This document shows positions 4,780-28,279 of a DNA stretch of 64,000 bases, piece after piece. This DNA comes from Amia ocellicauda (Eukaryota; Chordata; Actinopteri; Amiiformes; Amiidae). The position numbers and the translations under genes are program-made. Below the pieces are notes generated by a model. It saw only the letters and a list, made by a program, of their open reading frames with translations, was not told the origin of the DNA and ran no database searches. The stretch lies in NCBI RefSeq assembly GCF_036373705.1, contig NC_089864.1, positions 3,625,001 to 3,689,000 on the forward strand, written 5' to 3'. The stretch's first letter is position 1. Each line of letters begins with the position of its first letter.

Positions 4780-4830
4780 CCACAACCTCCAGTTCTACTG
4801 AATCCCAGACTCCATCCTCCCCCAGCACCC
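4780..4830 (+). CDS. Receptor stalk exon A1
   Basis: A 51-bp internal exon, phase 1 at both ends, with acceptor CCATTTCAG and donor GTGAGT. It encodes TTSSSTESQTPSSPST, a Ser/Thr/Pro-rich mucin-like segment suited to an O-glycosylated extracellular stalk. It is the first of nine stalk exons read on this strand up to the transmembrane exon at 13672. Three near-identical copies lie at 6012, 7604 and 8870. No Ig or other ligand-binding exon precedes it in the window, so the receptor's N-terminus must lie further left. The exon call rests on conservation of splice sites and frame across copies. Confidence 0.6.
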
Positions 4831-5454: not shown

Positions 5455-5505
<51 letters not shown>

Positions 5506-5625: not shown

Positions 5626-5661
5626 ATGCAACCACCAGGACTACAGCCTCTTCCAGTACAG
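5626..5661 (+). CDS. Receptor stalk exon B1
   Basis: A 36-bp phase 1-1 exon with acceptor CTGTTTCAG and donor GTGAGT. It encodes ATTRTTASSST plus split codons, again Thr/Ser-rich stalk sequence. Joined to A1 and A2 it keeps frame (…PSST-H-ATTRTT…-G/A-TTSSS…). Copies B2 and B3 at 7212 and 8484 differ by one residue (T to A). Confidence 0.6.
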
Positions 5662-5773: not shown

Positions 5774-5774
<1 letters not shown>

Positions 5775-5828: not shown

Positions 5829-5830
<2 letters not shown>

Positions 5831-6011
5831 GTGTGACTGTTTGCCTACGTGTGTGTGAGTGTGTGTTTGTGATTGTGAGTGTGTGTCTATGTGAGTCTGT
5901 GTGTGCGTGTTGTCTGTGTCACTGTATTCACAGTCCAGCTCATGTTTTCTGCAGCTCTGAGCTCCACCCTCTCTGACTGAAATGGTTTTGTGTTTTGTTT
6001 TGCCATTTCAG

Positions 6012-6062
6012 CCACAACCTCCAGTTCTACTGAATCCCAGACTCCATCCTCCCCCAGCACCC
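6012..6062 (+). CDS. Receptor stalk exon A2
   Basis: 51-bp phase 1-1 exon identical in coding content to A1 (TTSSSTESQTPSSPST), with acceptor CATTTCAG and donor GTGAGT. It lies about 1.23 kb after A1, inside the second duplicated unit, whose flanking introns also match. Confidence 0.6.
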
Positions 6063-6290
6063 GTGAGTATCACCCCTCTCTAATGCTCAGAGGCTGGTCA
6101 ATGTTGTGAAGCCCTTGGTTTCTGTCCCACACTGTGGCGCTCTGAGTGCTGCACCCTCTGACTGCTCTGTCTCTCCTGTCTGTCTGTTAGCTCTGAGCAG
6201 TGCATCCAACAATTGTGTGGGATTTCTTTCTATTGTTCTGGTTTTAATTTTGGTTTCCAATCCTTCAGGTCCAGTCATTATGAGCAGACT

Positions 6291-6340
6291 ACACTACACT
6301 ACACTGCACTACACTGCACTACACTACACTATACTACACT
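6291..6340 (+). repeat. 5-bp satellite, array 2 (left part)
   Basis: Short CACTA/CACTG array interrupted by the LTR at 6341-6768. The array resumes at 6769. Confidence 0.9.
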
Positions 6341-6768
6341 TGTGGAAGATCAATCATCTTCAATCAGGTTGGAGCGTTAGTTGCAATGCCTATAATACAC
6401 GCAGCGTGGAGAGGAACAGTGAATCAAGAAGATCCCAAAGTCGCTCTGCCTTCATTCTGACAGTCAGAGGTTTTATACACAAAAATCAAAGAGCTGGTTA
6501 TAATCAGAAAGTCATTACTATATTATATTAAAAGTTAGCTAAGCAGAATATATTTCATTATAGGACAGAGTTCATAGATCAACACATGGATTAGGGAGCA
6601 GGCTCTTCAATCATACTATTTGACATTGTCTCCAAGATTCTCATCGTAAATAACAAACAGAAATCAAGCTTCCTTCTGGCCTGTCCTCCTGGCTTGACCT
6701 TATCTTTCTTAAGTATACAAGAGAGTAAAACAGGTATGAAATAAATAATTTCTAACTTTCCTTCCACA
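6341..6768 (+). mobile_element. LTR (probable solo LTR) inserted in the satellite
   Basis: 428 bp with perfect short inverted ends TGTGGAAG…CTTCCACA, in the TG…CA form expected of LTRs. It is embedded in the 5-bp satellite, with possible CACT duplications at both sides that the repeat itself makes hard to prove. A near-identical 428-bp copy is at 10640-11067. No internal retroelement genes lie beside this copy. Strand was not determined with certainty. Confidence 0.7.
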
Positions 6769-6926
6769 CACTACACAGCACTACACTACACTGCACTGCA
6801 CTACACTACACTACACTACACTGCACTACACTACACTGCACTACACTGCACTACACTACACTGCACTACACTACACTACACTACACTGTACTGCACTACA
6901 CTACACAACACTGCACTTCACTACAG
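6769..6926 (+). repeat. 5-bp satellite, array 2 (right part)
   Basis: Continuation of the CACTA/CACTG array after the LTR, followed by (GA)n at 7051-7090. Confidence 0.9.
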
Positions 6927-7046
6927 TTTTATGGTTTCATTCTAACACGGTGCTGGAGCTTCTAATCAGAGAACAACACAGAAGACAATTACAAGTACTA
7001 ATGAGAGCTTTCTGTAATAGCATTGTCTCCTACAGAGTGTGCAAAT

Positions 7047-7091
<45 letters not shown>

Positions 7092-7211
7092 GGGATGAGT
7101 TAGAAAATAAAAATGTTCTAAGAACAGATCAGGGCTTTTGTTCTGTGAAACACTGTGTCTGTCTGTGTCCCCCTCTGAACTCAACTGCCTGTCCTGCTTT
7201 CACTGTTTCAG

Positions 7212-7247
7212 ATGCAGCCACCAGGACTGCAGCCTCTTCCAGTACAG
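7212..7247 (+). CDS. Receptor stalk exon B2
   Basis: 36-bp phase 1-1 exon with acceptor CTGTTTCAG and donor GTGAGT. It encodes ATTRTAASSST. It differs from B1 by ACA to GCA (Thr to Ala). Second unit of the tandem duplication. Confidence 0.6.
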
Positions 7248-7361
7248 GTGAGTGAGACCCATCTGTGGCCCATTTTCCAGCTCCTGAACCAAGAAAAGCT
7301 GCACCGATTCTCCTGCAGCTCCCAGTTCACTGAGATACTGTCAGTGCGGTCAGAGCCTCAC

Positions 7362-7420
<59 letters not shown>

Positions 7421-7603
7421 CAGTGTGACTGTTTGCCTACGTGTGTGTGAGTGTGTGTTTGTGATTGTGAGTGTGTGTCTATGTGAGTCTGTGTGTGCGT
7501 GTTGTCTGTGTCACTGTATTCACAGTCCAGCTCATGTCTTCTGCAGCTCTGAGCTCCACCCTCTCTGACTGAAATGGTTTTGTGTTTTGTTTTGACATTT
7601 CAG

Positions 7604-7654
7604 CCACAACCTCCAGTTCTACTGAATCCCAGACTCCATCCTCCCCCAGCACCC
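7604..7654 (+). CDS. Receptor stalk exon A3
   Basis: 51-bp phase 1-1 exon coding TTSSSTESQTPSSPST, with acceptor ACATTTCAG and donor GTGAGT. Third copy of the A exon. The intron 3' of it again leads into the 5-bp satellite. Confidence 0.6.
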
Positions 7655-7875
7655 GTGAGTATCACCCCTCTCTAATGCTCAGAGGCTGGTCAATGTTGTG
7701 AAGCCCTTGGTTTCTGTCCCACACTGTGGCGCTCTGAGCGCTGCACCCTCTGACTGCTCTGTCTCTACTGTCTGTCTGTTAACTCTGAGAAGTGCACCCA
7801 ACAATTGTGTGGGTTTTGTTTTAATTGGGGTATTAAATTTGGGTTGCAGTCCTTCAGTTCCAGTCATTATGAGCA

Positions 7876-8219
7876 GACTACACTATACTACACTACACTA
7901 CACTGCACTGCACTGCACTACACTGCACTACACTGCACTACACTGCACTACACTACACTGCACTACACTGCACTACACTGCACTGCACTACACTACACTG
8001 CACTACACTGTACTACACTACACTACACTACACTACACTGCACTACACTGCACTACACTACACTACACTGCACTACACTGTACTACACTACACTGCACTA
8101 CACTGCACTACACTGCACTGCACTACACTACACTGCACTACACTGTACTACACTACACTACACTGCACTACACTGCACTACACTGCACTACACTACACTA
8201 CACTGCACTGCACTACACT
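7876..8219 (+). repeat. 5-bp satellite, array 3
   Basis: About 345 bp of CACTA/CACTG units. Within it a block of about 130 bp appears to repeat, a higher-order structure. (GA)n at 8343-8361 follows. Confidence 0.95.
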
Positions 8220-8483
8220 TTTATGGTTTCATTCTAACACGGTGCTGGAGCTTCTAATCAGAGAACAACCCAGAAGACAATTACAAGTACTAATGAGAAC
8301 TTTCTGTAATAGCATTGTCTCCTACAGAGTGTGCAAATAGACGAGAGAGAGAGAGAGAGAGTTGGGATGAGTTAGAAAATAAAAATGTTCTTAGAACAGA
8401 TCAGGGCTTTTGTTCTGTGAAACACTGTGTCTGTCTGTGTCCCCCTCTGAACTCAACTGCCTGTCCTGCTTTCACTGTTTCAG

Positions 8484-8519
8484 ATGCAGCCACCAGGACT
8501 GCAGCCTCTTCCAGTACAG
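8484..8519 (+). CDS. Receptor stalk exon B3
   Basis: 36-bp phase 1-1 exon with the same sequence as B2 (ATTRTAASSST), acceptor CTGTTTCAG and donor GTGAGT. Third duplicated unit. Confidence 0.6.
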
Positions 8520-8633
8520 GTGAGTGAGACCCATCTGTGGCCCATTTTCCAGCTCCTGACCCAAGAAAAGCTGCACCGATTCTCCTGCAGCTCCCAGTTC
8601 ACTGAGATACTGTCAGTGCGGTCAGAGCCTCAC

Positions 8634-8688
<55 letters not shown>

Positions 8689-8869
8689 GTGTGACTGTTT
8701 GCCTACGTGTGTGTGAGTGTGTGTTTGTGATTGTGAGTGTGTGTCTATGTGAGTCTGTTTGTGTGTGTTGTCTGTGTCACTGTATTCACAGTCCAGCTCA
8801 TGTCTTCTGCAGCTCTGAGCTCCACCCTCTCTGACTGAAATGGTTTTGTGTTTTGTTTTGCCATTTCAG

Positions 8870-8920
8870 CCACAACCTCCAGTTCTACTGAATCCCAGAC
8901 TCCATCCTCCCCCATCACCG
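8870..8920 (+). CDS. Receptor stalk exon A4
   Basis: 51-bp phase 1-1 exon. It differs from A1-A3 at its end (SSPIT then a G of a split Gly codon). Acceptor CCATTTCAG, donor GTGAGT. It is the last A-type exon and is followed by the charged C-type exon instead of a B exon. Confidence 0.6.
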
Positions 8921-9144
8921 GTGAGTATCACCCCTCTCTAATGCTCAGAGGCTGGTCAATGTTGTGAAGCCCTTGGTTTCTGTCCCACACTGTGGTGCTC
9001 TGAGCGCTGCACCCTCTGACTGCTCTGTCTCACCTGTCTGTCTGTTAGCTCTGAGAAGTGCATCCAACAATTGTGTGGGTTTTGTTTTAATTGGGGTATT
9101 AAATTTGGGTTACAGTCCTTCAGTTCCAGTCATTATGAGCAGAC

Positions 9145-9376
9145 TGCACTACACTGCACTACACTGCACTACACTGCACTACACTACACTACACTACACT
9201 GCACTACACTGTACTACACTACACTACACTACACTACACTACACTACACTACACTACACTGCACTACACTGTACTACACTACACTACACTTCACTACACT
9301 ACACTACACTACACTACACTGCACTACACTGTACTACACTACACTACACTTCACTACACTACACTTCACTACACTT
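9145..9376 (+). repeat. 5-bp satellite, array 4
   Basis: About 230 bp of CACTA/CACTG with a visible ~75-bp higher-order repeat (blocks ending in a CACTT variant). (GA)n at 9498-9529 follows. Confidence 0.95.
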
Positions 9377-9494
9377 TTATGGTTTGATTCTGACACAGTG
9401 CTGGAGCTTCTAATCAGAGAACAACACAGAAGACAATTACAAGTACTAATGAGAGCTTTCTGTAATAGCATTGTCTCCTACAGAGTGTGCAAAT

Positions 9495-9534
<40 letters not shown>

Positions 9535-9684
9535 ATGAGTTAGAAAATAATAACATTTGTGATTGTGACTAACATTGTGTGTGGGTGAGTGTGTGTGTGT
9601 GTGTGTGTGAGAGTGTGAGTTTGTTGTGTATATTGTGGTGTGCGTTGTGTCTGTCTCCAACTGAATCTGATTTCATTATTTCAG

Positions 9685-9717
9685 GTAAAAACGATCATAA
9701 AGATGACAACCATTCAG
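9685..9717 (+). CDS. Receptor stalk exon C1 (charged)
   Basis: 33-bp phase 1-1 exon with acceptor TTATTTCAG and donor GTGAGT. With the incoming G it encodes GKNDHKDDNHS, a highly charged, Asp/Lys/His-rich segment unlike the mucin-like A and B exons. A near-identical copy is C2 at 12369. About 280 bp downstream (9993-10030) lies a decayed sister (GAAGATGATGATGGTGATGA…) whose acceptor AG is gone. Confidence 0.5.
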
Positions 9718-9917
9718 GTGAGTAGCTGCTGGGTTCAGTTTTGAATCCCAAGGTAAAATACATTGATTTTCCTGAAACCCCCACTGCACAATATCTCCAA
9801 CTGTGAGTGTGTCTGCGTCTGCGTCTGCGTATGAGAGTTTGTGTGTGCGAGTGAGTGTGTGAGTGCTTGTGCATTTGCGTGTGTGTGTGAGAGAGTGTTG
9901 TATGTGTGCGTGTGTGT

Positions 9918-9968
<51 letters not shown>

Positions 9969-9992
9969 GCGTCCGTCTCCATCTGAATCTGA

Positions 9993-10029
9993 TTTGGTGA
10001 AGATGATGATGGTGATGACAGCCATTCAA
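9993..10029 (+). pseudogene. Decayed C-type stalk exon
   Basis: The sequence after ATCTGATTTG is alignable to exon C1 (…GATGATGGTGATGACAGCCATTCAAGTGAG). The acceptor TTTCAG is replaced, and the last base before the donor is A. An identical decayed copy is at about 12666-12702. Between C1 and this remnant is a long (GT)n run. Confidence 0.4.
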
Positions 10030-10639
10030 GTGAGTAATAAAAGTATAACCAAACAAAACACAAATTAAAATAAATCCTATATACGAAAATAACAAACATG
10101 TTTTTCAATATGTTTGCATTTATATAACTTAATGACGTTTCTTCATTTACCATACCATTTATGGTTCTATAAAACACATGCTTTTATATTATCACCGCAT
10201 ATCAGATATTGAACAATTAATTAGCGCTCCTTTTTTTCTCTTTTCTCTAATAGTAGGTCAAACCTACACTGCAGTTTACAAACACACTTTTGTCTGCGGG
10301 AACCCAAACAGGAAAACACAGTCCTGTTTCTTCACAAACAAGAAGACACAGTCAAGTTTGTGGTAACCCTAAGAAACCCTTGTTTCTTTACAAGCAAGAA
10401 AACATTTCCTGCCTCAAGTATTTGATGTAAGGCAAGCAACAACGTTGAATTAAAATATAGATCGCGTTACCTGATCGTCAGGGCCTGGCGAGCAGACAAG
10501 TGAAAGCAAAGCACCGCAGTAGGGATTTTAAAAGGCTCCCTTACCTTATTATTCTGCCGGCGCGGCTTTACTGGTCAGTGGTCTGGCCACTCCGCTCCTC
10601 TCCATCAGGGTCAGCGATCCCATCCTCATCGCCATGTAA

Positions 10640-11067
10640 TGTGGAAGATCAATCATCTTCAATCAGGTTGGAGCATTATTTGCAATGCCTTTAATACACG
10701 CAGCGTGGAGAGGAACAGTGAATCAAGAAGATCCCAAAGTCGCTCTGCCTTCATTTTAACAGTCAGAGGTTTTATACACAAAAATCAAAGAGCTGGTTAT
10801 AATCAGAAAGTCATTACTATATTATATTAATAGTTAGCTAAGCAGAATATATTTCATTATAGGACAGAGTTCATAGATCAACACATGGATTAGGGAGCAG
10901 GCACTTCAATCATACTATTTGACATTGTCTCCAAGATTCTCATCGTAAATAACAAACAGAAATCAAGCTTCCTTCTGGCCTGTCCTCCTGGCTTGACCTT
11001 ATCTTTCTTAAGTATACAAGAGAGTAAAACAGGTATGAAATAAATAATTTCTAACTTTCCTTCCACA
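10640..11067 (+). mobile_element. Second LTR copy
   Basis: 428 bp, near-identical to 6341-6768, with the same TGTGGAAG…CTTCCACA ends and the same satellite on its right flank. Its left flank differs: 10460-10639 is GC-rich non-satellite sequence. On the - strand it reads TTACATGGCGATGAGGATGG directly after the LTR, the position of a primer-binding site starting TGG. This copy may therefore be one LTR of a retroelement with a bit of internal sequence, while the 6.3-kb copy is solo. Confidence 0.65.
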
Positions 11068-12041
11068 CACTACACAGCACTACACTACACTGCACTGCAC
11101 TACACTACACTACACTACACTGCACTACACTACACTGCACTACACTGCACTACACTACACTGCACTACACTGCACTACACTACACTACACTGCACTGCAC
11201 TACACTGCACTACACTACACTGCACTACACTGCACTACACTACACTGCACTGCACTGCACTACACTACACTGCACTACACGACACTGCACTGTACTACAC
11301 TACACTGCACTACACTGCACTACACTGTACTACACTACACTGCACTACACTGCACTGCACTACACTACACTGCACTGCACTGGACTGCACTACACTACAC
11401 TACACTACACTGCACTACACTGCACTACACTACACTACACTGCACTGCACTGTACTACACTACACTGCACTACACTGCACTACACTGCACTGCACTACAC
11501 TACACTGCACTGCACTGCACTGCACTACACTACACTAAACTGTACTACACTGCACTACACTACACTGCACTGCACTACACTTACACTACACTACACTGCA
11601 CTACACTGCACTACACTGTACTGCACTATACTACACTACACTACACTGCACTACACTACACTACGCTGTACTACACTACACTGTACTGCACTGCACTGCA
11701 CTGCACTACACTGCACTACACTACACTACACTACACTGCACTGCACTGCACTACACTACACTACACTGTACTACACTGCACTGCACTACACTACACTGCA
11801 CTACACTGCACTGCACTACACTACACTGCACTACACTAAACTGTACTACACTACACTACACTGCACTACACTACACTACACTGCACTACACTACACTACA
11901 CTGCACTGCACTACACTGCACTGCACTACACTGCACTACACTACACTGCACTACACTACACTGCACTGCACTACACTGCACTGCACTACACTGCACTACA
12001 CTACACTGCACTACACTACACTGCACTACACTACACTACAC
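11068..12041 (+). repeat. 5-bp satellite, array 5 (largest, ~1 kb)
   Basis: Nearly 1 kb of CACTA/CACTG with few variants (TGTAC, TAAAC, one GGAC). It lies between the LTR and the unit carrying stalk exon C2. (GA)n follows at 12166-12191. Confidence 0.95.
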
Positions 12042-12368
12042 TTTTATGGTTTCATTCTAACACGGTGCTGGAGCTTCTAATAAGAGAACAACACAGAAGA
12101 CAATTACAAGTACTAATGATAATTTTCTGTAATAGCATTGTCTCCTACAGAGTGTGCAAATAGACGAGAGAGAGAGAGAGAGAGAGAGAGATAGTTTTGA
12201 TGAGTTAGAAAATAAAAACATTTGTGATTGTGACTAACATTGTGTGTGGGTGAGTGTGTGTGTGTGTGTATGAGAGAATGTGCGTGCACGTGTGTGTGTG
12301 TGTGAGAGTGTGAGTTGTGTGGTGTACGTTGTGTCTGTCTCCAACTGAATCTGATTTCATTATTTCAG

Positions 12369-12401
12369 GTAAAAACGATCATAAAGATGACAACCATTCA
12401 G
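12369..12401 (+). CDS. Receptor stalk exon C2 (charged)
   Basis: 33-bp phase 1-1 exon identical in coding content to C1 (KNDHKDDNHS), with acceptor TTATTTCAG and donor GTGAGT. It is the last stalk exon before the transmembrane exon in this reading. A decayed sister copy follows at about 12666. Confidence 0.5.
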
Positions 12402-12601
12402 GTGAGTAGCTGCTGGGTTCAGTTTTGAATCCCAAGGTAAAATACATTGATTTTCCTGAAACCCCCACTGCACAATATCTCCAACTGTGAGTGTGTCTGC
12501 GTCTGTGTCTGCATATGAGAGTTTGTGTGTGCGAGTGAGTGTGTGAGTGCTTGTGCATTTGCGTGTGTGTGTGAGAGAGTGTTGTATGTGTGCGTGTGTG
12601 T

Positions 12602-12638
<37 letters not shown>

Positions 12639-12851
12639 GTGTCCGTCTCCATCTGAATCTGATTTGGTGAAGATGATGATGGTGATGACAACTATTCAAG
12701 TGAGTCAGCACCCGCGCCCCCTGCTCTCACTGGGGAAAACACTGTCAAGAAATATTTTGCCTAGGGTGCCTACATACTCTAGAATCGCCACTGTGTGCGA
12801 GTGTGTGAGTGTGAGAGTGTGAGTTTGTTGTGTATTGTGTGGTGTGTGAGC

Positions 12852-13049
12852 ATAGGTGGACTGGCCATCAGGCAATTCTGTCAAATGCCAGATATGCCGG
12901 TCTATTCACATGTAGCCGGTCGTCCCAGTGTAGACACCCAGACCGCACATCGGCAACAGCCCCCCAGCCCCCGGACCGCACTTTAATGGGACCCAGTCGT
13001 CGCCCCCCCTGAGTAAATGTCCAGGGCCGTTTTTTGGTCCCAGTCTGCC

Positions 13050-13053
<4 letters not shown>
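12852..13053. mobile_element. Short non-autonomous DNA element (~200 bp)
   Basis: The left end CATAGGTGGACTGGCCATC and the right end GGTCCCAGTCTGCCCCTGTG form imperfect terminal inverted repeats. The interior is GC-rich. It resembles a miniature hAT-type element related to the larger one at 590-2478. Confidence 0.45.
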
Positions 13054-13089
<36 letters not shown>

Positions 13090-13211
13090 CGTGTGAGATT
13101 GTTGTCTCTCTCACTATATTCACAGTTCAGCTCATGTTTACTGCAGCTCAGAGCTCCACTCTTCTTGTATTTGTTGTACTTTGTATTTTTGTATTTTGTT
13201 TTGCCACTTCA

Positions 13212-13244
13212 GCCACTAACCCCAGTTCGGCTAAACCCCATTAG
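13212..13244 (+). pseudogene. Decayed A-type stalk exon
   Basis: Preceded by a TTTTGCCACTTCAG acceptor region matching the A-exon introns. It then reads CCACTAACCCCAGTTCGGC, akin to the A exon. It runs into an in-frame TAG at about 13242 and a (TTAGTA)n stretch, so it is probably not used. Confidence 0.35.
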
Positions 13245-13671
13245 TATTAGTATTAGTAGTTGTGGTAGTATTAATTTGGCTGTACTTCTTTCTTGTTTAA
13301 CTGAGCTGTCAACTTGTCCTATTCACAATCACCATCTGCAGCCCCTGTTCCATGTGAGTATGACACCGGTCTATGCAAGGGACGTCAGGCATGTTGTCTC
13401 TGAAGTTAAGTGTAATGTTATAATGTATAGCAGAGTGACCTTGTAGATAAAATTCAGTTAAGGGAGACAAAACAGAGCAAATTCAGTTAAGAGCAATGCC
13501 TTCATAACTGTTTACTGTAGTATTTCACTGTGAAATCACAGTGGAGAGAAATTGTGGTAAAGCATGGAGAAGTATAGCCGACCATGAACCAGAGCAAAGC
13601 AGATGTGTTTTGGAAATGTATTTTAATAACCATGGGAGGAAACAGCCAGTGCTCTCTGTCTGTCTCTGCAG

Positions 13672-13770
13672 GGAGTAAGATTAAATACCCTGCGGTGGGA
13701 GGAGGAGTGCTCATACTGGTCTGTGTGGTTGTGCTGATCGTGTGCTACTGCAGGAGGTGCAGAAATAAAG
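13672..13770 (+). CDS. Receptor transmembrane exon
   Basis: 99-bp phase 1-1 exon with acceptor GTCTCTGCAG and donor GTTGGT. It encodes SKIKYPAV, then a hydrophobic run of about 20 residues starting GGGVLILVCVVVLIV, then CYCRRCRNK. The basic CRRCRNK after the membrane segment fits a type I protein with the tail inside. It joins in frame to the stalk exons upstream and to tyrosine-motif exon T1 downstream. The TM core has no acidic or basic residue, so nothing suggests pairing with a charged adaptor. Cys residues at the cytoplasmic edge could be palmitoylated (inference). Confidence 0.7.
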
Positions 13771-14123
13771 GTTGGTACCTTCCTGTCTGTCTGTCTGTCC
13801 ATCTATCAATACAAATGCTGTATGTGCACTGTGAAGAAAAAGAAAAGTGAAAACTTACAGTACCTTACTGGTAACATGCTCTGTACCCCAGTTTAGCTCA
13901 GTGCATCGCTTTTTTACTTATTGAAGCCTCATGTTTAATGCTGGCACTACTTGGCCTGTCCTACAATCTTCCACATTAGGAACAAGTGTCAAACCCACTG
14001 AGTCACTATGCCACCCTGTGGCACTGAGGAAGATATCAACATGTATCTTGAAATGTAGCCATTTCAGCCATACTATGAACCCACCTTGCTCTTCCTCTCT
14101 CTCTCTCTCTCTCTCTCCTCTAG

Positions 14124-14177
14124 GCTCCATGGACACATCGACAGACTATGCTGTCGTACACGTGCCTCAGATAACAG
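14124..14177 (+). CDS. Cytoplasmic tail exon T1 (TDYAVV)
   Basis: 54-bp phase 1-1 exon after a CT-rich tract, with acceptor CCTCTAG and donor GTACAC. It encodes SMDTSTDYAVVHVPQIT. TDYAVV fits the ITSM consensus TxYxx[VI], a motif that binds SH2-domain adaptors and phosphatases in leukocyte receptors. It is the first of ten similar small exons. Confidence 0.65.
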
Positions 14178-14382
14178 GTACACTGCCCTTCCTTACCTCT
14201 GTGACATAAGCCGAGGGACGAGGCACAGTTAGAGTGAACTGTCACCTTCCAGAAGCACTGTAGATAATTAAAAAGATAGATGGATGGATGGATAGATTGA
14301 TAAATGGGTGAAGTCAGTGTTCTAGAGTTTGTTCAGTGTATTCTTGTGTGCAGTTTATAGCCATCACTCTGTTGTGTTTCAG

Positions 14383-14436
14383 AAGAAGGGGACCCAGACT
14401 ACACTGAGATAAAGGACCTCAAACCAGCTGAAGAAG
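14383..14436 (+). CDS. Cytoplasmic tail exon T2 (PDYTEI)
   Basis: 54-bp phase 1-1 exon with acceptor GTGTTTCAG and donor GTAGGG. It encodes EEGDPDYTEIKDLKPAEE. The tyrosine has Ile at +3 but Pro at -2, so it is an SH2-type YxxI site and not a strict ITIM. DYTEI is also a typical tail motif of other leukocyte receptors. Confidence 0.65.
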
Positions 14437-14721
14437 GTAGGGTCGGTCTGCCCCCTCTGTCATCCGCCACTGCCCAGTTCTCTGTTGTCATCGTCGTCCC
14501 CCTCCACCTTTTGTTGCGTCTCTCCTCTTGTACATGTGGATGACTAAGTGATTCTCGGTTCCTTCTCTATCATCGTCGATTCTATTAGGATTCTCTCCCT
14601 TATCTCATCTCTCCACTGTCTTACTATCCTAACACTGTGAAGTTTAGGAATCTCCTCACACTACACCACTGGGGGGATGTTATTGCCTGCTGACTGAGAC
14701 GCCTCCTGTGATTGGTCTGAT

Positions 14722-16290
14722 GTTGAGCCAGGAAATTACAGACCAATCAGTCTCCCTGCACTACTTGTAAAATGATTAGACAGAAAACAGAGGAGCATCT
14801 TAATGAAAACCATATTCTTGGAGATAGTCAACATGGGTTTAGACGAGGCAGATCATGTCTTACTAATTTATTAGAGTTATTTGAACTGCAGCTGTAGATC
14901 ACATGAAAGCTTATGATATGATATACTTAGATTTCCAGAAAGCTTTTGATAAGGTTCCACACCAAAGACTGATCCTCAAATTGGAAGCTGTAGGCATTCA
15001 GGGTAATGTAAGTAGATGGATTATGAACTGGTTGATGTCTAGGAAACAGAGGGTGTCGATTAGAGGAGTTGCTTCTAACTGGAGTGAGGTTGTTAGTGGA
15101 GTTCCACAGGGATCAGTATTAGGGCCTTTGCTTTTTCTAATATATATTAATGATTATTTATTATTATTTATGTATTAATTAATTAGCAGACATCCTTAAC
15201 CAGAACTTACGAAATATAAGCGCAATACAAAGTGCAAAATTACAGTGCAGTAAAAGGCATAACATATTACAAATTCCATAATACAGTGCAATTCAAAGCA
15301 TAATACATGTTACAAATTCCAATTCACACAATATATGAGGTCTTACATCCTGGACTGTTAGAGGTGATGAGTGCAGACAAGATGTTAGGTCACAGTCAAG
15401 GGCCAGGGGAAGGGAGCATAGGGGAGATCAAAATACAAATACTAGTAATGCAAGGCAAGTAGTATGATAAACGTTGTATAAGTGCTATCTTACAGGAGAG
15501 TAAATTACTAAATTACAAGTACTGTTTGAAATTATGTGTTTTTGAGTGAGGATTCTGGGATTGTTAGCAAACTTGTCAAATTTGCTGATGATACTAAAAT
15601 AGGTGGCTCAGCAGATACAATCTTGGCAGCACAGGCTATTCAGAGGGACTTGGATAATATTCAGTTGTGGGCCGACACCTGGCAGATGAAATTCAATGTG
15701 AAAAAGTGCAAGGTATTACATGCAGGTAACAAAAATGTCCACTATAATTACACTATGGGAGGAATAGAACTAGATGAAGTAACACATGAGAAAGACCTAG
15801 GAGTCTATGTGGACTCCTCACTTTCTCCATCCAAACAATGTGGGGAAGCAATAAAAAAGGCAAACAGGATGCTAGGGTATATTGTCAAAAGTGTAGAATT
15901 GAAAACAAGGGCAATGATATTCAGACTGTACAATGCACTAGTTAGAGCTCATCTGGATACTGTGGACAGTTCTGGGCTCCACACTTCAAGAAAGATATCG
16001 CTGCTCTAGGGGCAGTTCAAACCAGAGGCGCTTTTCCAGATCAGCAGGGACACACGCACCCAGGGAAACAAATGGAAATTGGGCTTCAAGGCATTCAAGA
16101 CAGAAAACAGGAGACACTTCTTCACACAGAGAGGCGTCACAATCTGAACAAACTCCCTAGCGATGTGGTTGAAGCTGAAAATTTGGGAACACATAAAAAT
16201 ATACTGGATAGGATCCTTGGATCACCAAACGAGCACAATGGGTCGAATGGCCTCCTCTCGTTTGGAAGCTTTCTTATGTTCTTGCATGGG
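14722..16290 (+). mobile_element. CR1-type LINE fragment inserted between tail exons T2 and T3
   Basis: Reverse transcriptase remains read on +: the YRPIS region near 14740, DFQKAFDKVPHQRL near 14930, GVPQGSVLGPLLFLIYIND near 15100, then, after an interruption, KFADDTKIGG near 15580 and DLGVYVDSSLSPSKQCG near 15800. The 3' end near 16240-16280 (GGGTCGAATGGCCTCCTCTCG) is the type found at CR1-like LINE ends. The RT catalytic FADD is present, but stops and a ~360-bp insert break the frame, and the C-terminal region is internally deleted around 16005. An inverted second copy lies at 36230-37770. Confidence 0.8.
15168..15530 (-). mobile_element. SINE-like insert within the LINE
   Basis: It interrupts the RT reading frame between YIND and the FADD block. 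It starts with a TTATTATTTAT run followed by AGCAGACATCCTTAACCAG, the reverse complement of the L2-type 3' tail seen in fish SINEs. It is therefore inserted on the - strand. Confidence 0.5.
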
Positions 16291-16351
16291 TGTATGAATG
16301 CAGAGAGATTGAACGTCTCAGTCGTAACCTCTCTGCTGTTCCTCCCAGCAG

Positions 16352-16405
16352 CTGTAGAAGCGAATGCTGAATCTGACTACGCCGTCATCAGTGAAGCAGA
16401 AGCCA
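16352..16405 (+). CDS. Cytoplasmic tail exon T3 (SDYAVI)
   Basis: 54-bp phase 1-1 exon with acceptor CCCAGCAG and donor GTAAGT. It encodes VEANAESDYAVISEAEA. SDYAVI is a perfect ITIM ([SIVL]xYxx[ILV]), the phosphatase-recruiting motif of inhibitory receptors. Confidence 0.65.
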
Positions 16406-16508
16406 GTAAGTAGTGAGTGCAGATCCACCCTTACAGAGGACATGCGAGGAGCGGGGGGGTGGAGCTCTTTGTCTTTGATGCTGCCCTTGTCTTGTCTCGT
16501 ATTCCTAG

Positions 16509-16571
16509 AGCAAGCCGGCGATCAGGGCTCTGACTACGCTCTGGCCCAGGCCCCGCAGACGGCTAAGGAAG
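16509..16571 (+). CDS. Cytoplasmic tail exon T4 (SDYALA)
   Basis: 63-bp phase 1-1 exon with acceptor ATTCCTAG and donor GTACTG. It encodes QAGDQGSDYALAQAPQTAKE. The tyrosine is kept, but position +3 is Ala, so the ITIM is weakened. Confidence 0.65.
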
Positions 16572-16701
16572 GTACTGACTGTGTTTCTACTGCAGTATAG
16601 CAAGTGCCACCCCACCCCTGTCACAGCACCACCACCAGAAACAGAAATGTCGAGCCTTGCTGTCTAGCTTTTTACCCTCCCATGTTTACAGCATGTTTTT
16701 A

Positions 16702-17440
16702 ACATGGACAGTGACACAATTGTCATCATTTTGGCTCTGTATGCCACCAAAATGGATTTGAAAGGAAACAATGGAACTGGTTCCCTTGCATTTATTGATG
16801 ATACTGACAAAAGCAGCAGGATGAATTCTGAAGTGTTTAGGGCTATATTATCTGCTCAGATTCAGCCAAATGCTTCAAAACTCATTGGGTGGCGCTTCAC
16901 AGTGCAGATGGACAACAACCAGAAGCATACTGCGAAAGCAACCCAAGACTTTTTTAATTTGAAGAAGTGGAATGTTCTGCAATGGCCAAGTCAATCACCT
17001 GACCTGAATCCAACTGAGCAGCATTTCACTTGCTGAAGGCATAACTGAAGGCAAAACGCAACAAAAACAAGCAGGAACTAAAGACACTGCAGTGCACGCC
17101 TGGCAGAGCATCACCAGGGAAGAAACCCAGCATCTGCTGATGTCTATGGGTTCCAGACTTCAGGCAGTCATTGACTGCAAAGGATTTGCAACCAAGTATT
17201 GAAACTCACATCTGAATTCATGATTTTGTTAGTTTGTCCAGTTACCTTTGAACCCCTAAAATTGGGGGGACCACAAATAAAAATGGGTGCAATTCCTACA
17301 CAGTTCACCCAATTTGGATGTAACTAGCATAAAATTAAAGATGAAAGTCTACACTTAAAGCACATCTTGATTGTTTCCTTTCAAATCCATTGTGGTGTTG
17401 TACACAGCCAAAAAGACGACAATCATGTCACTGTCCAAAC
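16702..17440 (+). mobile_element. Degraded Tc1-like element (GTTAGGTCCATA family)
   Basis: The left part begins TGGACAGTGACACAATTGTC and the right part ends near CACTGTCCAAAC. These match the inner ends of the two shorter copies at 18408-18841 and 20871-21319. The outer TIRs are eroded. Confidence 0.6.
16704..17036 (+). pseudogene. Tc1-like transposase fragment (C-terminal)
   Basis: A frame containing RFTVQMDNNQKHTAKATQDF and [14 protein letters not shown], the second and third catalytic-residue regions of Tc1 transposases (D in MDNN, E in NPTE). The N-terminal DNA-binding part and the first catalytic Asp are missing, and the frame stops at 17036 before the normal C-terminus. It lies in the intron between T4 and T5. 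Confidence 0.7.
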
Positions 17441-17575
17441 TGGCTATAGATATAGCTATACAGATATGACAATAGAATCGTTTATGGGACACACTGAGCT
17501 GAGTGTTAGTAGCGACCGCATGATTTTCAATAGGGACAAGATAGGACATCACAAATACTTTTGTCTTCTGCCCAG

Positions 17576-17638
17576 GTCCAGCCTCTGTCCAGGACTCAGA
17601 TTACTCTTCTGTTCAGCCTCCCAAGGATGTTGAGAAAG
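17576..17638 (+). CDS. Cytoplasmic tail exon T5 (SDYSSV)
   Basis: 63-bp phase 1-1 exon with acceptor TCTGCCCAG and donor GTGAGC. It encodes PASVQDSDYSSVQPPKDVEK. SDYSSV is a perfect ITIM. Confidence 0.65.
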
Positions 17639-17773
17639 GTGAGCTCTGGGGCAGGTACTATATTACAATTGATAGTGACAGAATGAACACTGACTCTGGA
17701 GTGGAGGGGTGGGGAGGGTGGAGATGAACTCTGATCTGTGACCCTGTTCTTATCTCATCTCATTCTTTTCTAG

Positions 17774-17830
17774 AGACAACCGGCAGTCCGAATTCAGACA
17801 ACTCTGTGGCTCCCGAGACAGCTGGGAAGG
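17774..17830 (+). CDS. Cytoplasmic tail exon T6 (SDNSVA, tyrosine lost)
   Basis: 57-bp phase 1-1 exon with acceptor CTTTTCTAG and donor GTGAGA. It encodes ETTGSPNSDNSVAPETAGK. Aligned with its sisters, Asn sits where the tyrosine should be (TAC to AAC is one base). Frame and splice sites stay intact. Confidence 0.55.
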
Positions 17831-18226
17831 GTGAGATTGAATGCACTTCCTGTTTCAGAGACTCTTGGGGTCTGGAAGGAGGGGGAGGGGTGTTGGTTGG
17901 CCTTTGGGATGCAGGGATGTGATTTAGAAAGAGGGAGAGCCATCATTCATGGCAGTCAAATGTACCAATCTGCTAAACAATCACCAAACTGCTTTCATCA
18001 ATTGCATTAAACAATTAACCAATTGTACTTGATTAATTTCCTAAAACACACTGCCACACACACAGAATTCCCACAGACACCCCCATGCACACATAGACCC
18101 ACAGATGTCTGTATCCAGCCCAGTAGGAGCTGTAGATCCCGTGTGTTGGACATGTGACTCATGAACAGTTGTTGCAATGCTACCAGAGAAATCTGCTTCA
18201 TCGTGTCCACCCTTGTCTTGTGTCAG

Positions 18227-18286
18227 AGCCAGAGAAAGCTGTTGATTGTGAATATGCTTCTGTGACCAAACCCAAACCAGCACAGA
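18227..18286 (+). CDS. Cytoplasmic tail exon T7 (CEYASV)
   Basis: 60-bp phase 1-1 exon with acceptor TTGTGTCAG and donor GTAAGA. It encodes EPEKAVDCEYASVTKPKPAQ. The tyrosine and Val at +3 are present; position -2 is Cys instead of Ser. Confidence 0.65.
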
Positions 18287-18338
18287 GTAAGACATGAACA
18301 TTTTACTTATATTATCTATCCATCCATCAATCCATCCA

Positions 18339-18342
18339 TCTA

Positions 18343-18406
<64 letters not shown>
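18339..18406 (+). repeat. (CT)n(GT)n(TA)n microsatellite
   Basis: Compound dinucleotide repeat immediately left of the Tc1-like element at 18408. That element's TA target may lie in this tract. Confidence 0.9.
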
Positions 18407-18407
<1 letters not shown>

Positions 18408-18410
<3 letters not shown>

Positions 18411-18841
18411 GTTAGGTCCATACATATTTGGACAGTGACACAACTGTCATCATTTTGGCTCTGTACACCACTACAATGGATTTGAAAAGAATCAATCAAG
18501 ATGTGATTTAGGTGTAGACTTCCATCTTTAATTTGAGGGTAGTTATTTGGGTGAACGGTGTAGGAATTACACCCATTTTCAATCAATACTTGGTTGCAAA
18601 TCCTTTGCAATTCATGATTATGTTAGTTTATCCAATTTCTTTTGAGCCCCTAAAATTGGGGGGGGGGGCACATATAAAAATGGGTGTAATTCCTACACTA
18701 ACTTCACTCAAATTAAAGGTGAAAGTTGACACTTAAAGCACATTGTTTCCTTTCAAATCAATTGTACAGAGTACACAGAGTGTACAGAGCCTAAATTATG
18801 TTAATTGTGTCACTGTCCAAATATTTATGAACCTAACTGTG
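18408..18841. mobile_element. Non-autonomous Tc1-like element (MITE)
   Basis: 434 bp with inverted ends ACAGTTAGGTCCATACATAT and ATATTTATGAACCTAACTGT. It has no coding sequence and belongs to the same family as 20871-21319. Confidence 0.75.
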
Positions 18842-19080
18842 TATATACATCTGTATCTGTGTGTGTATCTGTCTGAATATATTTCTTACTGTGCTTATAT
18901 GTCTTATGTCAGTCAATATTTGTGATTGTCAGTCACTCTATAATGTACTATTGTGAGCCCTGGTCCTGGAGTACCCCTGTGTCTTGTGCTTTGGGTTGTA
19001 GCTGGGCTCTAAAGCTACTAAAACCAATAAAATATGTACACTGCACCTATACATATTTCACCTCTGTCTCTGTATCCCAG

Positions 19081-19131
19081 GCCCTGTAGGCAGCAGCACC
19101 GACAATGCAGCTATACAGAAGACACAGAACG
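19081..19131 (+). CDS. Cytoplasmic tail exon T8 (TDNAAI, tyrosine lost)
   Basis: 51-bp phase 1-1 exon with acceptor GTATCCCAG and donor GTACAG. It encodes PVGSSTDNAAIQKTQN. The motif would be TDYAAI, an ITSM, but Asn replaces tyrosine, the second such case in the array. Confidence 0.5.
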
Positions 19132-19573
19132 GTACAGTGCCCTTCAACTACACAGTTTCCTCTCTTGTACCACTTGTATCTTGAGCTTTGTGCACGTTGC
19201 TTTGCTGTCACTGTTGATTAAGATTAGGTCTGTGGATGTGATCTGGAGCTGAATGGCACTAAGGAGGGGAATTCTCATTGAGAGCACTTAGCCATAGGGC
19301 ACTGCTATGGGATATTATAGTAAAGGATCACAGATAGCCTTCAGTACAGGAATGTTTTGGGTTGTTTTTCTCTCTCTGTCCGTCTGTCTTTGTCTAAGCC
19401 CCCTCCTCTCTCATTCCTTTTCTCTCTCAGTGCCCATTGCCTTTGCTTCCCCTTACCCCTTCCTTCCAGTTCTTCCAATGTTAAGACGCTTGTTTACCAA
19501 TAAAAAACCTCTGACACAGTGTATCACTGACCCTTTGACTGTCTGTGTGTGTCTTTGTGTCTCTGTGTTACAG

Positions 19574-19632
19574 ATGCTGCCCAGTCTAACAATCCAGATT
19601 ATTCTCTCAGGGGCTTCACTAAGAGCTGTTGA
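19574..19632 (+). CDS. Cytoplasmic tail exon T9 (NPDYSL), runs to a stop
   Basis: Acceptor GTGTTACAG. It encodes AAQSNNPDYSLRGFTKSC and then TGA at 19630-19632. No GT donor sits where the sister exons end, so this is either an alternative last exon or one that has lost its donor. NPDY matches the NPxY form used by PTB-domain endocytic adaptors, but Y+3 is Arg, not an aliphatic residue. A Tc1-like element follows 140 bp downstream. Confidence 0.5.
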
Positions 19633-19770
19633 TTGGCATTTTTTTCTCTTTCTTACTCTGCCTGAATTCTCTTTCTTTTTATCTCTCTACTTGTTGCCTT
19701 TCTCTTACTGTATTAGTGAAACTCTCTCAGCCTATTGACCTATTTGTTCCACTACCTATTTGTCTATATA

Positions 19771-20668
19771 CACTGATCAGCCATAACATAATGATCACTG
19801 ACAGGTGAAGTGAATAACACTGATAATCTCGTTATCATGGCACCTGTCAGTGGGTGGGATATATTAGGCAGCAAGTGAACATTTTGTCCTCAAAGTTGAT
19901 GTGTTAGAAGCAGGAAAAATGGGCAAGCGTAAGGATCTGAGCGACTTTGACAAGGGCCACATTGTGATGGCTAGACGACTGGGTCAGAGCATCTCCAAAA
20001 CTGCAGCTCTTGTGGGGTGTTCCCGGTCTGCAGTGGTCAGTACCTATCAAAAGTGGTCTAAGGAAGGAAAAGAGGTGAACCAGCGACAGGGTCATGGGCG
20101 GCCAAGGCTCATTGATGCACGTGGGGAGCGAAGGCTGGCCCATGTGGTCCGATCCAACAGACGAGCTACTGTAGCTCAAATTGCTGAAAAAGTGAATGCT
20201 GGTTCTGATAGAAAGGTGTCAGAACACACAGTGCGTCGCAGTTTGTTGCGTATGGGGCTGCGTAGCCGCAGACCAGTCAGGGTGCCCATGCTGACCCCTG
20301 TCCACTGCCGAAAGTGCCTACAATGGGCACGTGAGCATCAGAACTGGACCACGGAGCAATGGAAGAAGGTGGCCTGGTCTGATGAATCACAAGTTCAAGG
20401 TGTTGACTTGACCTCCAAATTCCCCAGATCTCAATCCAATCGAGCATCTGTGGGATGTGCTGGACAAACAAGTCCGATCCATGGAGGCCCCACCTCGCAA
20501 CTTACAGGACTTAAAGGATCTGTTCCTAACATCTTGGTGCCAGATACCACAGCACACCTTCAGAGGTCTAGTGGAGTCCATGCCTCGACGGGTCAGGGCT
20601 GTTTTGGTGGCAAAAGGGGGACCTACACCATATTAGGCAGGTGGTCATAATGTTATAGCTGATCGGTG
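19771..20668 (+). mobile_element. Tc1-like element, internally deleted
   Basis: Inverted ends CACTGATCAGCCATAACAT and ATGTTATAGCTGATCGGTG, flanked on each side by TA. About 0.9 kb, so shorter than a full 1.2-1.3-kb copy. It lies between tail exons T9 and T10. Confidence 0.85.
19919..20637 (+). pseudogene. Tc1-like transposase, deleted and frameshifted
   Basis: ATG at 19919 opens [20 protein letters not shown] with the paired helix-turn-helix region of Tc1 transposases. The first catalytic Asp is in VAWSDESQ. The sequence then jumps, with loss of about 90 codons and a frame change, to [15 protein letters not shown], which holds the third catalytic residue (E). It ends at the GGPTPY terminus. 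The second catalytic Asp region is gone, so the protein is inactive. Confidence 0.8.
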
Positions 20669-20724
20669 TATCTATATGTATCTGTCTGCATACCTGCCTG
20701 ATCCACCCTGTGTGTGTGTTTCAG

Positions 20725-20792
20725 ATTGTGCGCTGTCCACAGACTCAGAGTACTCCCTCCTACAGCCCATTCAACAAGCCCAAGCACAGTGA
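20725..20792 (+). CDS. Cytoplasmic tail exon T10, last exon (SEYSLL)
   Basis: Acceptor GTGTTTCAG. It encodes CALSTDSEYSLLQPIQQAQAQ and then TGA at 20790-20792. SEYSLL is a perfect ITIM. Its entry phase matches the other cassettes, so splicing T8 to T10 over the interrupted T9 keeps frame and gives a longer tail ending in an ITIM. Confidence 0.6.
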
Positions 20793-21562: not shown

Positions 21563-21879
21563 GGTTTTGTTGTTTGTTTGCTAATAAGTTAATAAGTTAA
21601 TAGTTTGTGTAACATCAAGATCAATTCCTGACACACTTTGTGTCACCTGCTCCAAATTCCATGTGAGATTGAAGGATAACCTGAAGGCACTGATATCTCC
21701 TCACCCTGAGACCACAGCTGTGCAGCCCTGCGAGAAAACGATGAATAACAATTGACAACACCTCTCAATTCCTCCCCTTTCACAGGACCTGAGCACAGAG
21801 GAGCCGAGACTGTCTAGAGGAACCCACTGAACATTTACACACCCACTGTTACCAGATACTGTTTGTTTTTTCCCGGTTA

Positions 21880-22115
21880 GTTAAAGTATATCATGCTCAA
21901 ATGTGCAATTCGGGAGCTATTGTATGTAATGTACAGGTGTCACACAGACAGGATGCTTATGCAATAAGATGGTTATTTGACTCTGCTTTCATTATAGTTG
22001 TGAAATAGAGGGTTTGACAAGCCTTGTTACATGTTTACACCATGTTATAGTGTAAAACAAGCCACTGGTGAACTTACCAGGGTAAGAGTGCATAAAGGAG
22101 GGAAGTAAAGCCTTT
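21880..22115 (+). repeat. Segmental duplication, copy 1
   Basis: Contains AGCTATTGTATGTAATGTAC, a block ending GAGGGTTTGACAAGCCTT, and TTACACCATGTTATAGTGTA. All recur in order at 25568-25922. This copy lacks about 120 bp present between the last two blocks in the other copy. Confidence 0.8.
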
Positions 22116-24354: not shown

Positions 24355-25281
24355 CTGGAAAGACAACCATTCAGACCTGGATTAGATGCACACACTAACA
24401 GCCAGTTCTACATCTGTCACACCCCCACATTGTGCGACGTCAGGCTCCGCATTAACACCTCGCTGTTGGGTTTTATTCTTATGTTGAATTGGCAAATATT
24501 TATGTCAGATTTATTAGAATAACTTTAAATTCCCTTTAACGCACAGGTGATAGAATTGGAACAAAATACAAAGCATACAACAGAGCAGGCTCAAACACCC
24601 AGTATTTTATATGGAACCTGGCTTTTTGCACTGCATAGGGCCTGGAGCAGATGCTCATTAATTCTACCAATCAGCCAATCACTATTTTTATGTGGTGTAG
24701 CGGCTTTCACAACAAGTTGTCACAGAGCTCTTTCACAGACTAAAGATGCACAAGGCCCGTCACCGTAGCGTCTCTGTGACCGTCTGTGCCAATCTACCCA
24801 TCATGCATCAGGTGTTCCCAGGGTTTTTCAATAAGAGACTGGGATGGGCTGAGACAGGCTATAACTTAAACCCAATAAAGAATTACAATACATTTCTGAG
24901 CAGTGTGTTTGTGAGGACTCCAAATCATATAATCTTATGTTAGGGTGTCTGCTAATAAATAAATAATAATACATCATTGTACAAATGCAATACAGATAGG
25001 CCTCAGTAGTAGTTTAACTACAAAACCCTACTCATGTTTAATAATCACCTGGGGATCCTGACAAGTAAGCCGAGGTATTTGCATCTACATTGATGGGCTT
25101 ATATTAATCTCTTTAAGTCTGCTTTACTGTGCCAAGCAGGCTGGGATTTCCCCAGTTTTGTGGTTTCAGTAGCTGCATTTCAGAAATTTGCCACCAACTG
25201 GGGCTGTGTTCAACCTGCAGGTCAGCTTTGAGGAATTCTTCCATATTGATCATATCACAACCACAAAGCTATGCCAAGTCC

Positions 25282-25436
25282 GTTGCATAGGACTCATCCT
25301 TTATCGCCTGTAAATGGGCAGCATGTTCAGTGTTACACAGGTACTGCCCAGAGTCTGCGGGCTGGACAGCTCTGATCACCAGGGTGAGGTCAGTAGGAAG
25401 GAGGCTGAACTTGTGCTGATGACCAGGTATGGTTGT
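25282..25436 (-). pseudogene. Truncated V-type Ig exon
   Basis: The - strand reads HKFSLLPTDLTLVIRAVQPADSGQYLCNTEHAAHLQAIK, split here as HKFSLLPTDL and DSGQYLCNTEHAAHL. It is very close to the second Ig domain of the gene at 33508-33804 (the F-strand D.G.Y.C motif is kept). The upstream half with the first Cys and Trp is replaced by GC-rich transposon-end sequence (25450-25510), and the donor reads GATGAG instead of GTGAGT. It is non-functional. Confidence 0.7.
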
Positions 25437-25567
25437 ATGTACAGCTCCTCGCCAGTGGCGCAGCTTACGGCAGCTGCCTGGGGCCCCAAGACTGACGGGG
25501 GCCCCCAAGGGGCAACTAATTTAAATCAACACCATTGACCGCAATGCCAACGACCCCCCCTCCCCAC

Positions 25568-27683: not shown

Positions 27684-27928
27684 GCGCAGAAACGCCAACA
27701 GTAGTGTTAAAGAGCGCACACGCTACAGAGTAGACTGGCAACCTGGTCGAAGGAGCAGATGTATGCTCATGTTGTGTGTGCAGGGGATAAGGTCTTTATA
27801 AAACGGAAAGTAGAATGAAATCTGTAGCGCTTATTTCGGAAGCTTTAAATACATCTTCACCAAGCAATTACATCATCACCTCAATGAAGCACAAGTAGAA
27901 GAGGAAGGGCAATTCAATCAGGACTCAC

Positions 27929-28222
27929 CCTTTATCTCTAAATTGGCAGCATGTTCACCGTTACACAGGTAGAGGCCGGAGTCTGCCGACCGCACAGGTG
28001 ATATCATCAATTTGTTGTCATCAGGCAGCAGCCTGACCCTCTTGTCTTGAACAGCGACCTCCTTACGGACAGCTCCCTTCTCATCTCGGGTCAGTAGAAG
28101 CTCCGGTTTTGAGCCAGTCTTGCTGAATGACCACCGGACTGGCTCGCCGTGTGATGGGGGCTTCGAGATCTTGCATTCCAGCACTGCCGCTCCTCCCTCT
28201 GTCACGGTGTATTTCACGGCAG
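27929..28222 (-). CDS. V-type Ig domain exon of second receptor gene
   Basis: 294-bp phase 1-1 exon on the - strand with acceptor CCCCTCCACAG and donor GTGAGT. It encodes one Ig V-like domain. B-strand Cys is in AAVLECKI, the core Trp in PVRWSFSK, and the F-strand motif in SADSGLYLCNGEHAANL. It aligns along its length with the second domain of the complete gene (33508-33804), including the unusual HAAxLE/Q end, so it is paralogous. No J-like segment or recombination signal is present, so it is a germline receptor domain and not an antigen-receptor V segment. The signal exon at 28892-28964 is in phase with it. Confidence 0.75.
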
Positions 28223-28279
28223 CTGTGGAGGGGAAAGTGATTAAACTCAAAGTAACCGGATCAACCACACTGTGGATTC

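Follow-up and report, generated by a model that had tools for sequence, protein, structure and literature searches.

An array of ten small one-motif cytoplasmic exons in a putative immune receptor gene of Amia ocellicauda

The stretch of Amia ocellicauda DNA analyzed in this study (NC_089864.1, hereafter C21, positions 3625001-3689000 of the 988-Mb assembly GCF_036373705.1; 64,000 nucleotides, referred to as the window) carries on its forward strand what looks like the 3' half of a gene encoding a type I membrane receptor, putatively a cell-surface immune receptor. The product would consist of a stalk encoded by repeated small Ser/Thr-rich exons, an uncharged transmembrane (TM) segment and a cytoplasmic tail built of duplicated phase-1 exons, termed cassettes here, each centred on one tyrosine-type motif. 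It is fairly probable that the gene represents an inhibitory-type receptor in which one-motif cassettes were multiplied, with gain as well as loss of cassettes. The length of the array and the turnover of cassettes between gene copies are more notable than the phase rule, which is common.

The cassette array and its splice sites

Exon ends were re-derived on the forward strand by means of donor and acceptor weight matrices, and the scores were ranked relative to every AG and GT on this strand of the window. The scan recovered the single TM exon and the ten cytoplasmic exons (T1 to T10, Table 1) described in an earlier interpretation of the letters alone (the sequence-only reading), whose statement that the internal exons measure 51-63 bp and start and end in phase 1 holds for T1-T8, all being multiples of three in length. 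Acceptor scores exceeded the 95th percentile (6.58) for seven of these eight cassettes, T7 reaching 6.23, and donor scores did so (5.19) for five of the eight. The donors of T1 (4.2) and T4 (3.85) lay above the 90th percentile (3.73), and that of T8 (1.91) was slightly over the 75th. The T3 acceptor is of the NAGNAG type with an alternative start at 16349, a feature common to a second gene copy, paralogue U, described below.

Joining the TM exon through T8 to T10 yielded an open frame of 206 codons followed by a stop. The proposal that any subset of cassettes can be spliced stood with regard to the reading frame, which remained open in all 256 subsets of T1-T8 placed between the TM exon and either T9 or T10, but did not stand for the T9-T10 junction, the GT at the end of T9 scoring -4.55 and such joining being not well possible. 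The open subsets result from the shared phase and from the lack of stops at the junctions, and show tolerance of splicing only. Since phase 1 is common among exons of the immunoglobulin superfamily (IgSF), phase symmetry taken by itself does not argue for alternative splicing. As T9 includes a stop and is devoid of a donor, T9 and T10 may represent alternative ends of the tail, with T9 as a possible alternative end exon. Given the location of the first poly(A)-type signal (Table 1), T9 as end exon would need to read past T10 to the same signals, which speaks for T9 being skipped in most transcripts. Pieces resembling reverse transcriptase and Tc1 transposase were also noticed at 14885-16006 (between T2 and T3) and 19868-20647 (between T9 and T10).

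For classification, a strict immunoreceptor tyrosine-based inhibitory motif (ITIM) was defined as [SVIL]xYxx[VIL] and an immunoreceptor tyrosine-based switch motif (ITSM) as TxYxx[VI]. The motif list of the sequence-only reading proved right as written, and pattern matching agreed with its assignment of three strict ITIMs (T3, T5 and T10) and one ITSM (T1), T2 and T7 being partial motifs. The four ITIM/ITSM-like motifs compare with 0.26 in shuffled tails (P 0.0002). The tail in its TM-T1...T8-T10 form is acidic, comprises about 175 residues and features seven motif tyrosines, four of them within an ITIM or ITSM. If understood to mean ten signalling motifs, the earlier description would overstate the tail. 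In this T10 form, consecutive motif positions are 16, 21, 18, 21, 21, 19, 19 and 18 residues apart, and tyrosines only are spaced by 16, 21, 18, 21, 40 and 37 residues.

Duplication of cassettes and their turnover in paralogue U

Among symmetric phase-1 mini-exons, the pattern [DE][YN]xx[VILA] was found in nine of 55 on the forward strand (eight exons, T3 being counted twice), all within 14124-19131, in one of 46 on the reverse strand, and, per first-order Markov copy of the region (200 copies), 0.005 times on average and at most once. The cut-offs had been set with the splice scan in view, such that T1-T8 pass; identical values were applied to the controls. The motif tyrosine (or asparagine) occupies codon 10 in seven of the ten cassettes, codon 9 in two and codon 7 in one, and none of 100,000 uniform placements produced a scatter this small. 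Outside the motif, the cassettes are 34.6% identical, whereas 2000 codon shuffles gave 29.3% (P 0.0005). With flanks included, nine of the 45 cassette pairs reached P ≤ 0.01 (300 shuffles a pair), the strongest pair being T1/T8 (z 11), alike through the exon and the donor into the intron. As the sequence-only reading had assumed, the cassettes are duplicates of one another, as judged from motif placement, flank identity and the T1/T8 intron likeness; they are old, except perhaps for T1/T8. A mere coincidence of splice-like and motif-like sequence has a negligible probability, being countered by the clustering of the mini-exons, the motif placement, the pair flanks and the existence of paralogue U; chance origin was ruled out by the Markov and strand controls together with the placement test.

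Paralogue U was recognized by the only other genome match obtained for the TM exon in that search (98% over 85 bases), located 32.7 kb upstream. Within U, T1, T3, T4, T5, T6 and T9 are kept in unchanged order, and T2 and T8 were not found in this copy. T5 of U reads SEYSLV and is thus a strict ITIM in both copies though the motif differs, and T6 carries asparagine in place of tyrosine in both. T9 of U (SDYSLS) is followed by two phase-1 GT sites scoring 7.67 and 1.66. In view of this retained donor, T9 most likely originated as an internal cassette and turned into an end exon in the copy of the window. The T9-T10 interval in U measures about 0.2 kb only. A genome search for further copies returned 12 matches at E ≤ 1, nine belonging to the window gene and three to U; as it missed T8 and T9 of the window gene and T1, T3, T5 and T9 of U, it says nothing on absence elsewhere.

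Five intron stretches differed by 7-12% between the window gene and U (69/695 pooled), and a 3' stretch (21602-22025) by 3%. Embedded in 10% diverged sequence, 184 bp at 17732-17915, spanning T6 and parts of both adjacent introns, are identical in the two copies, a run that was reached in 0 of 20,000 permutations. Gene conversion is likely for this block; an explanation of the T6 identity by exon constraint was rejected, because the identity runs across both introns and is better accounted for by conversion. For T1 and T3-T6, 13 synonymous differences per 64.5 sites compare with 14 replacement differences per 211.5 sites (proportions of synonymous, pS, and replacement differences, pN, of 0.202 versus 0.066; Fisher one-sided p 0.003). 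T6 being part of a likely conversion block, the selection test was run again with this cassette left out; for T3-T5 alone, 10 synonymous differences per 38.7 sites were counted versus 10 replacement differences per 132.3 sites (p 0.004).

Stalk exons, neighbouring IgV receptors and comparison with known systems

The stalk scan listed 15 forward-strand rows, of which nine were taken as stalk exons and one as the TM exon; visual inspection led to exclusion of the remaining five, which are without repeated Ser/Thr-rich or KNDH sequence. The stalk is Ser/Thr-rich, and its exon types A, B and C are present in four, three and two copies, respectively. Stalk exons lie within tandem units at 4663-9052, the copies being 1.2-1.6 kb apart and 96-99% alike. 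The expansion of the stalk is recent and independent of the tail, the cassettes of which are old. Long ACACT-type pentamer arrays were observed in stalk introns (5041-5336, 7873-8216 and 11044-12040).

Table 1. Positions of predicted exons and of the first poly(A)-type signal in the window.
Feature	Motif or sequence	Positions	Strand	Length	Remark
T1	TDYAVV	14124..14177	+	54 bp	ITSM
T2	PDYTEI	14383..14436	+	54 bp	YxxI, non-consensus -2 (Pro)
T3	SDYAVI	16352..16405	+	54 bp	strict ITIM
T4	SDYALA	16509..16571	+	63 bp	non-ITIM (Ala at +3)
T5	SDYSSV	17576..17638	+	63 bp	strict ITIM
T6	SDNSVA	17774..17830	+	57 bp	Asn for Tyr
T7	CEYASV	18227..18286	+	60 bp	YxxV, non-consensus -2 (Cys)
T8	TDNAAI	19081..19131	+	51 bp	Asn for Tyr, weak donor
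T9	PDYSLR	19574..19630	+		non-ITIM (Arg at +3); stop inside, ending at 19630; donor lost
T10	SEYSLL	20725..20792	+		strict ITIM; terminal coding exon with stop
Poly(A)-type signal	ATTAAA	21195..21200	+		first AATAAA/ATTAAA from 19501 on; next at 21322
TM exon		13672..13770	+		hydrophobic stretch without charged residue (translation, read by eye)
Stalk A, copy 1	TTSSSTESQTPSSPST	4780..4830	+		phase 1/1
Stalk B, copy 1	ATTRTTASSST	5626..5661	+		
Stalk A, copy 2		6012..6062	+		
Stalk B, copy 2		7212..7247	+		
Stalk A, copy 3		7604..7654	+		
Stalk B, copy 3		8484..8519	+		
Stalk A, copy 4		8870..8920	+		
Stalk C, copy 1	KNDHKDDNHS	9685..9717	+		
Stalk C, copy 2		12369..12401	+		

On the reverse strand of the window, IgV-type stretches were detected at 25272-25520 (a partial IgV match below the Pfam cut-off), 27921-28298, 33488-33949 and 34212-34571. 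Two genome searches with V exons gave 10 and 16 matches, partly shared, of which 10/10 and 15/16 are located on C21 and nine and 11, respectively, in the interval of 3.65-3.85 Mb; further members of the V cluster reside near 3.79-3.84 and 5.04 Mb of C21. One of the neighbours, referred to as gene D (forward strand, C21:3.701-3.709 Mb), comprises an IgV exon, a TM exon with a hydrophobic stretch free of charge, and two ITIM cassettes, HVYAVI (63 bp) and SEYAEI (54 bp), both in phase 1. By count, their tyrosines stand at codons 10 and 7, respectively; the first cassette is nearest to T3 and the second to T5, largely via the motif. Gene D and the window gene share the arrangement of one tyrosine motif per small phase-1 exon and the uncharged TM segment, and differ in that gene D has two ITIM cassettes instead of ten and an IgV exon that is seen. 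Gene D is the single clear conventional form of the window gene's build. Its V exon has two further counterparts of 98-99% identity. The one near-copy of gene D with a tail that was read retains an intact SEYAEI cassette and shows a partial, out-of-frame doubling of the HVYAVI cassette (about C21:3793179-3793220), another instance of cassette change within the cluster. For a third forward-strand V gene (TM exon at C21:3848010-3848099), no tyrosine cassette was found at the cut-offs used in the 9 kb following the TM exon. Downstream in the window, an apparently intronless open frame of 420 residues (57256-58515, forward strand) resembles a coiled coil and includes an IQ motif (Pfam E 3.7e-4); it may be a retrocopy of a ciliary IQ protein.

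The window gene was left without a family name, because neither the tail nor the V exons achieved a specific homology match. A search of the tail against proteins gave no match at E ≤ 0.1 among 93 candidates, and its comparison with solved structures resulted in four noise-level matches only (E 1 or worse). The protein search with an IgV exon of the cluster was without match, and two cluster V exons retrieved from solved structures only general V-domain matches (best 60 of 106 and of 379). Naming the gene by homology was consequently given up. An Rfam scan yielded no matches at gathering scores.

Among published systems, the cytoplasmic part of PECAM-1 (CD31) is spread over eight alternatively spliced exons and contains an ITIM pair, and forms without exon 14 show no SHP-2 binding (PMC5664058). 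The likeness to the window gene consists in the multi-exon cytoplasmic tail with ITIMs, whereas PECAM-1 differs by its two ITIMs and six Ig domains. The PECAM-1 tail exons are not known to form a repeated motif series. Among fish families, the NILT receptors of Atlantic salmon are clustered IgV receptors with four or five ITIMs per tail, all located in exon 6, which is entered in phase 0, introns 1-4 being in phase 1 (PMC3022915); in contrast, the cassettes of the window gene all enter in phase 1. In the NITR receptors of medaka, the cytoplasmic part is divided between two exons and includes one or two motifs of the ITIM or ITIM-like type (PMC2442602). They resemble the window gene in being fish IgV receptor clusters with inhibitory tails and differ from it in the number of cytoplasmic exons, which is ten in the latter. 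A V domain with a J-like FGXG, a further mark of NITRs, would belong to the ectodomain, which is unseen in the window gene. In the fish families compared, the number of motifs per inhibitory tail ranges from one to five, distributed over no more than two exons. Chicken BG genes form an IgV cluster with tails of many small duplicated 21-nt exons that expand and contract; these heptad exons encode a presumed coiled coil, and ITIMs are found in unspliced introns and not in each repeat (PMC4046983). The similarity to BG lies in exon evolution, while the heptad layout differs from the exons of 51-63 bp with one motif each described here. By analogy, the window gene would signal like PECAM-1, NILT and NITR, and would resemble BG in the evolution of its exons. 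The open-access literature searched contained, among the matches listed, no tail with six to ten ITIMs or such an exon layout.

Competing explanations and significance

According to the favoured reading as an inhibitory-type receptor, the tail would most likely be multivalent: a Src-family kinase would phosphorylate the tyrosines, and phosphotyrosine pairs would hold the two SH2 domains of SHP-1 or SHP-2. The array would have arisen by copying of single cassettes of the kind still present in the neighbouring two-ITIM IgV receptor, and would change through gain and loss of cassettes, the common phase leaving the frame unharmed. The exons, their phases, the motifs, the cassette duplication and the paralogue are shown by the sequence, and expression, phosphorylation, SHP binding and the inhibitory sign are inferred.

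Several results weigh against this reading and partly favour a decaying array, duplicated without selection for number, in which few cassettes signal or the gene is becoming a pseudogene; this explanation is rather unlikely. Six of the ten cassettes (T2, T4, T6, T7, T8 and T9) fall outside ITIM and ITSM, T6 and T8 having lost the tyrosine and T4 and T9 being non-ITIM. In U, aside from the undetected T2 and T8, T1 shows serine in place of tyrosine, T7 is without AG at the matching place, the likeness ending inside the exon, and T10 lacks the acceptor and the 5' part. Exons (28/291) and introns are equally divergent (p 1.0). Relative to intron change, replacement change is lower only at p 0.09 (p 0.25 for T3-T5) and synonymous change is higher (p 0.016); the low pN/pS ratio hence originates partly from the high pS. 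Transposon-like pieces also lie between cassettes. On the other hand, the path from the TM exon to T8 and T10 is free of frameshifts and stops, synonymous change exceeds replacement change, and T5 is a strict ITIM in both copies in spite of a changed motif. Coding constraint on the cassettes is therefore only suggested, and strong constraint was dropped as an interpretation, because the exons diverged as much as the introns. With regard to the duplication itself, the 60 nt of downstream flank alone left only 4/45 pairs at P ≤ 0.01 and ranked T3/T10 first and T1/T8 second; as T10 is terminal, T3/T10 does not represent a shared intron, and the downstream-flank evidence is weak. Finally, the globular ectodomain is unseen: no Ig signature was found on the forward strand of the window, including the 4.8-13.4 kb region of the stalk exons (PECAM-1 has six Ig domains before its TM segment), nine open reading frames in 778-14206 gave no Ig family, and nothing V-domain-like appeared on the forward strand further upstream, part of which reads N. 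The assignment of stalk and tail to a single gene is an inference drawn from their order and phase.

The unseen ectodomain and the Ser/Thr-rich stalk exons would also suit an adhesion or epithelial sialomucin-like receptor, the motifs of which dock a phosphatase at junctions. This is improbable, since the locus is situated next to and in the midst of IgV receptor exons and gene D has the same cassette build. Equally improbable is a receptor that is not purely inhibitory, recruiting Syk or SAP-type adaptors through the ITSM and close motifs and activating or switching, a mode suggested for IpLITR 1.1b. From T1 to T5, neighbouring tyrosines are separated by 16-21 residues, compared to a spacing of 22 residues in PECAM-1 and IpLITR 1.1b that is held to permit Syk binding (PMC4810170); however, the later tyrosines are 37-40 residues apart, and three strict ITIMs with an uncharged TM segment constitute the usual inhibitory layout.

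A separate issue concerns splicing, by which a choice among cassettes may be made. Constitutive splicing, with all working cassettes included, phase 1 as an inherited IgSF pattern and no tuning, competes with this part of the inhibitory-receptor reading only, and comes close to being an even prospect. Phase 1 is ordinary among IgSF exons (PMC3022915), and most cassette splice sites score well; yet the donor of T8 is weak and T9 is without a good one, so at least T9 would be skipped or form the tail end, and alternative splicing of a tail of this kind is known from PECAM-1 (PMC5664058). A splice-tunable phosphatase scaffold with the cassette length serving as a ruler is doubtful, though marginally less so than the two receptor types rated improbable above. 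T1-T8 comprise 17-21 codons each, near the 22-25-residue spacing of partner tyrosines in PECAM-1, PD-1 and BTLA, the latter two having 25 residues between ITIM and ITSM (PMC8631942). The tyrosines flanking T4, T6 and T8 (T3/T5, T5/T7 and T7/T10) are 39, 40 and 37 residues apart; by arithmetic, these distances would shrink to 18, 21 and 20 residues if the non-ITIM cassette in between were skipped, T7 being only a partial motif. If the ruler reading were true, cassettes lacking a working motif would act as spacers that set the affinity for SHP-1 and SHP-2.

In conclusion, the locus shows gain and loss of cassettes inside a receptor cluster. Ten homologous one-motif exons, a paralogue that gained or lost several of them and a two-cassette neighbour make up a natural series, which may be used to ask how the number and spacing of motifs set inhibitory strength, and whether splicing sets it.

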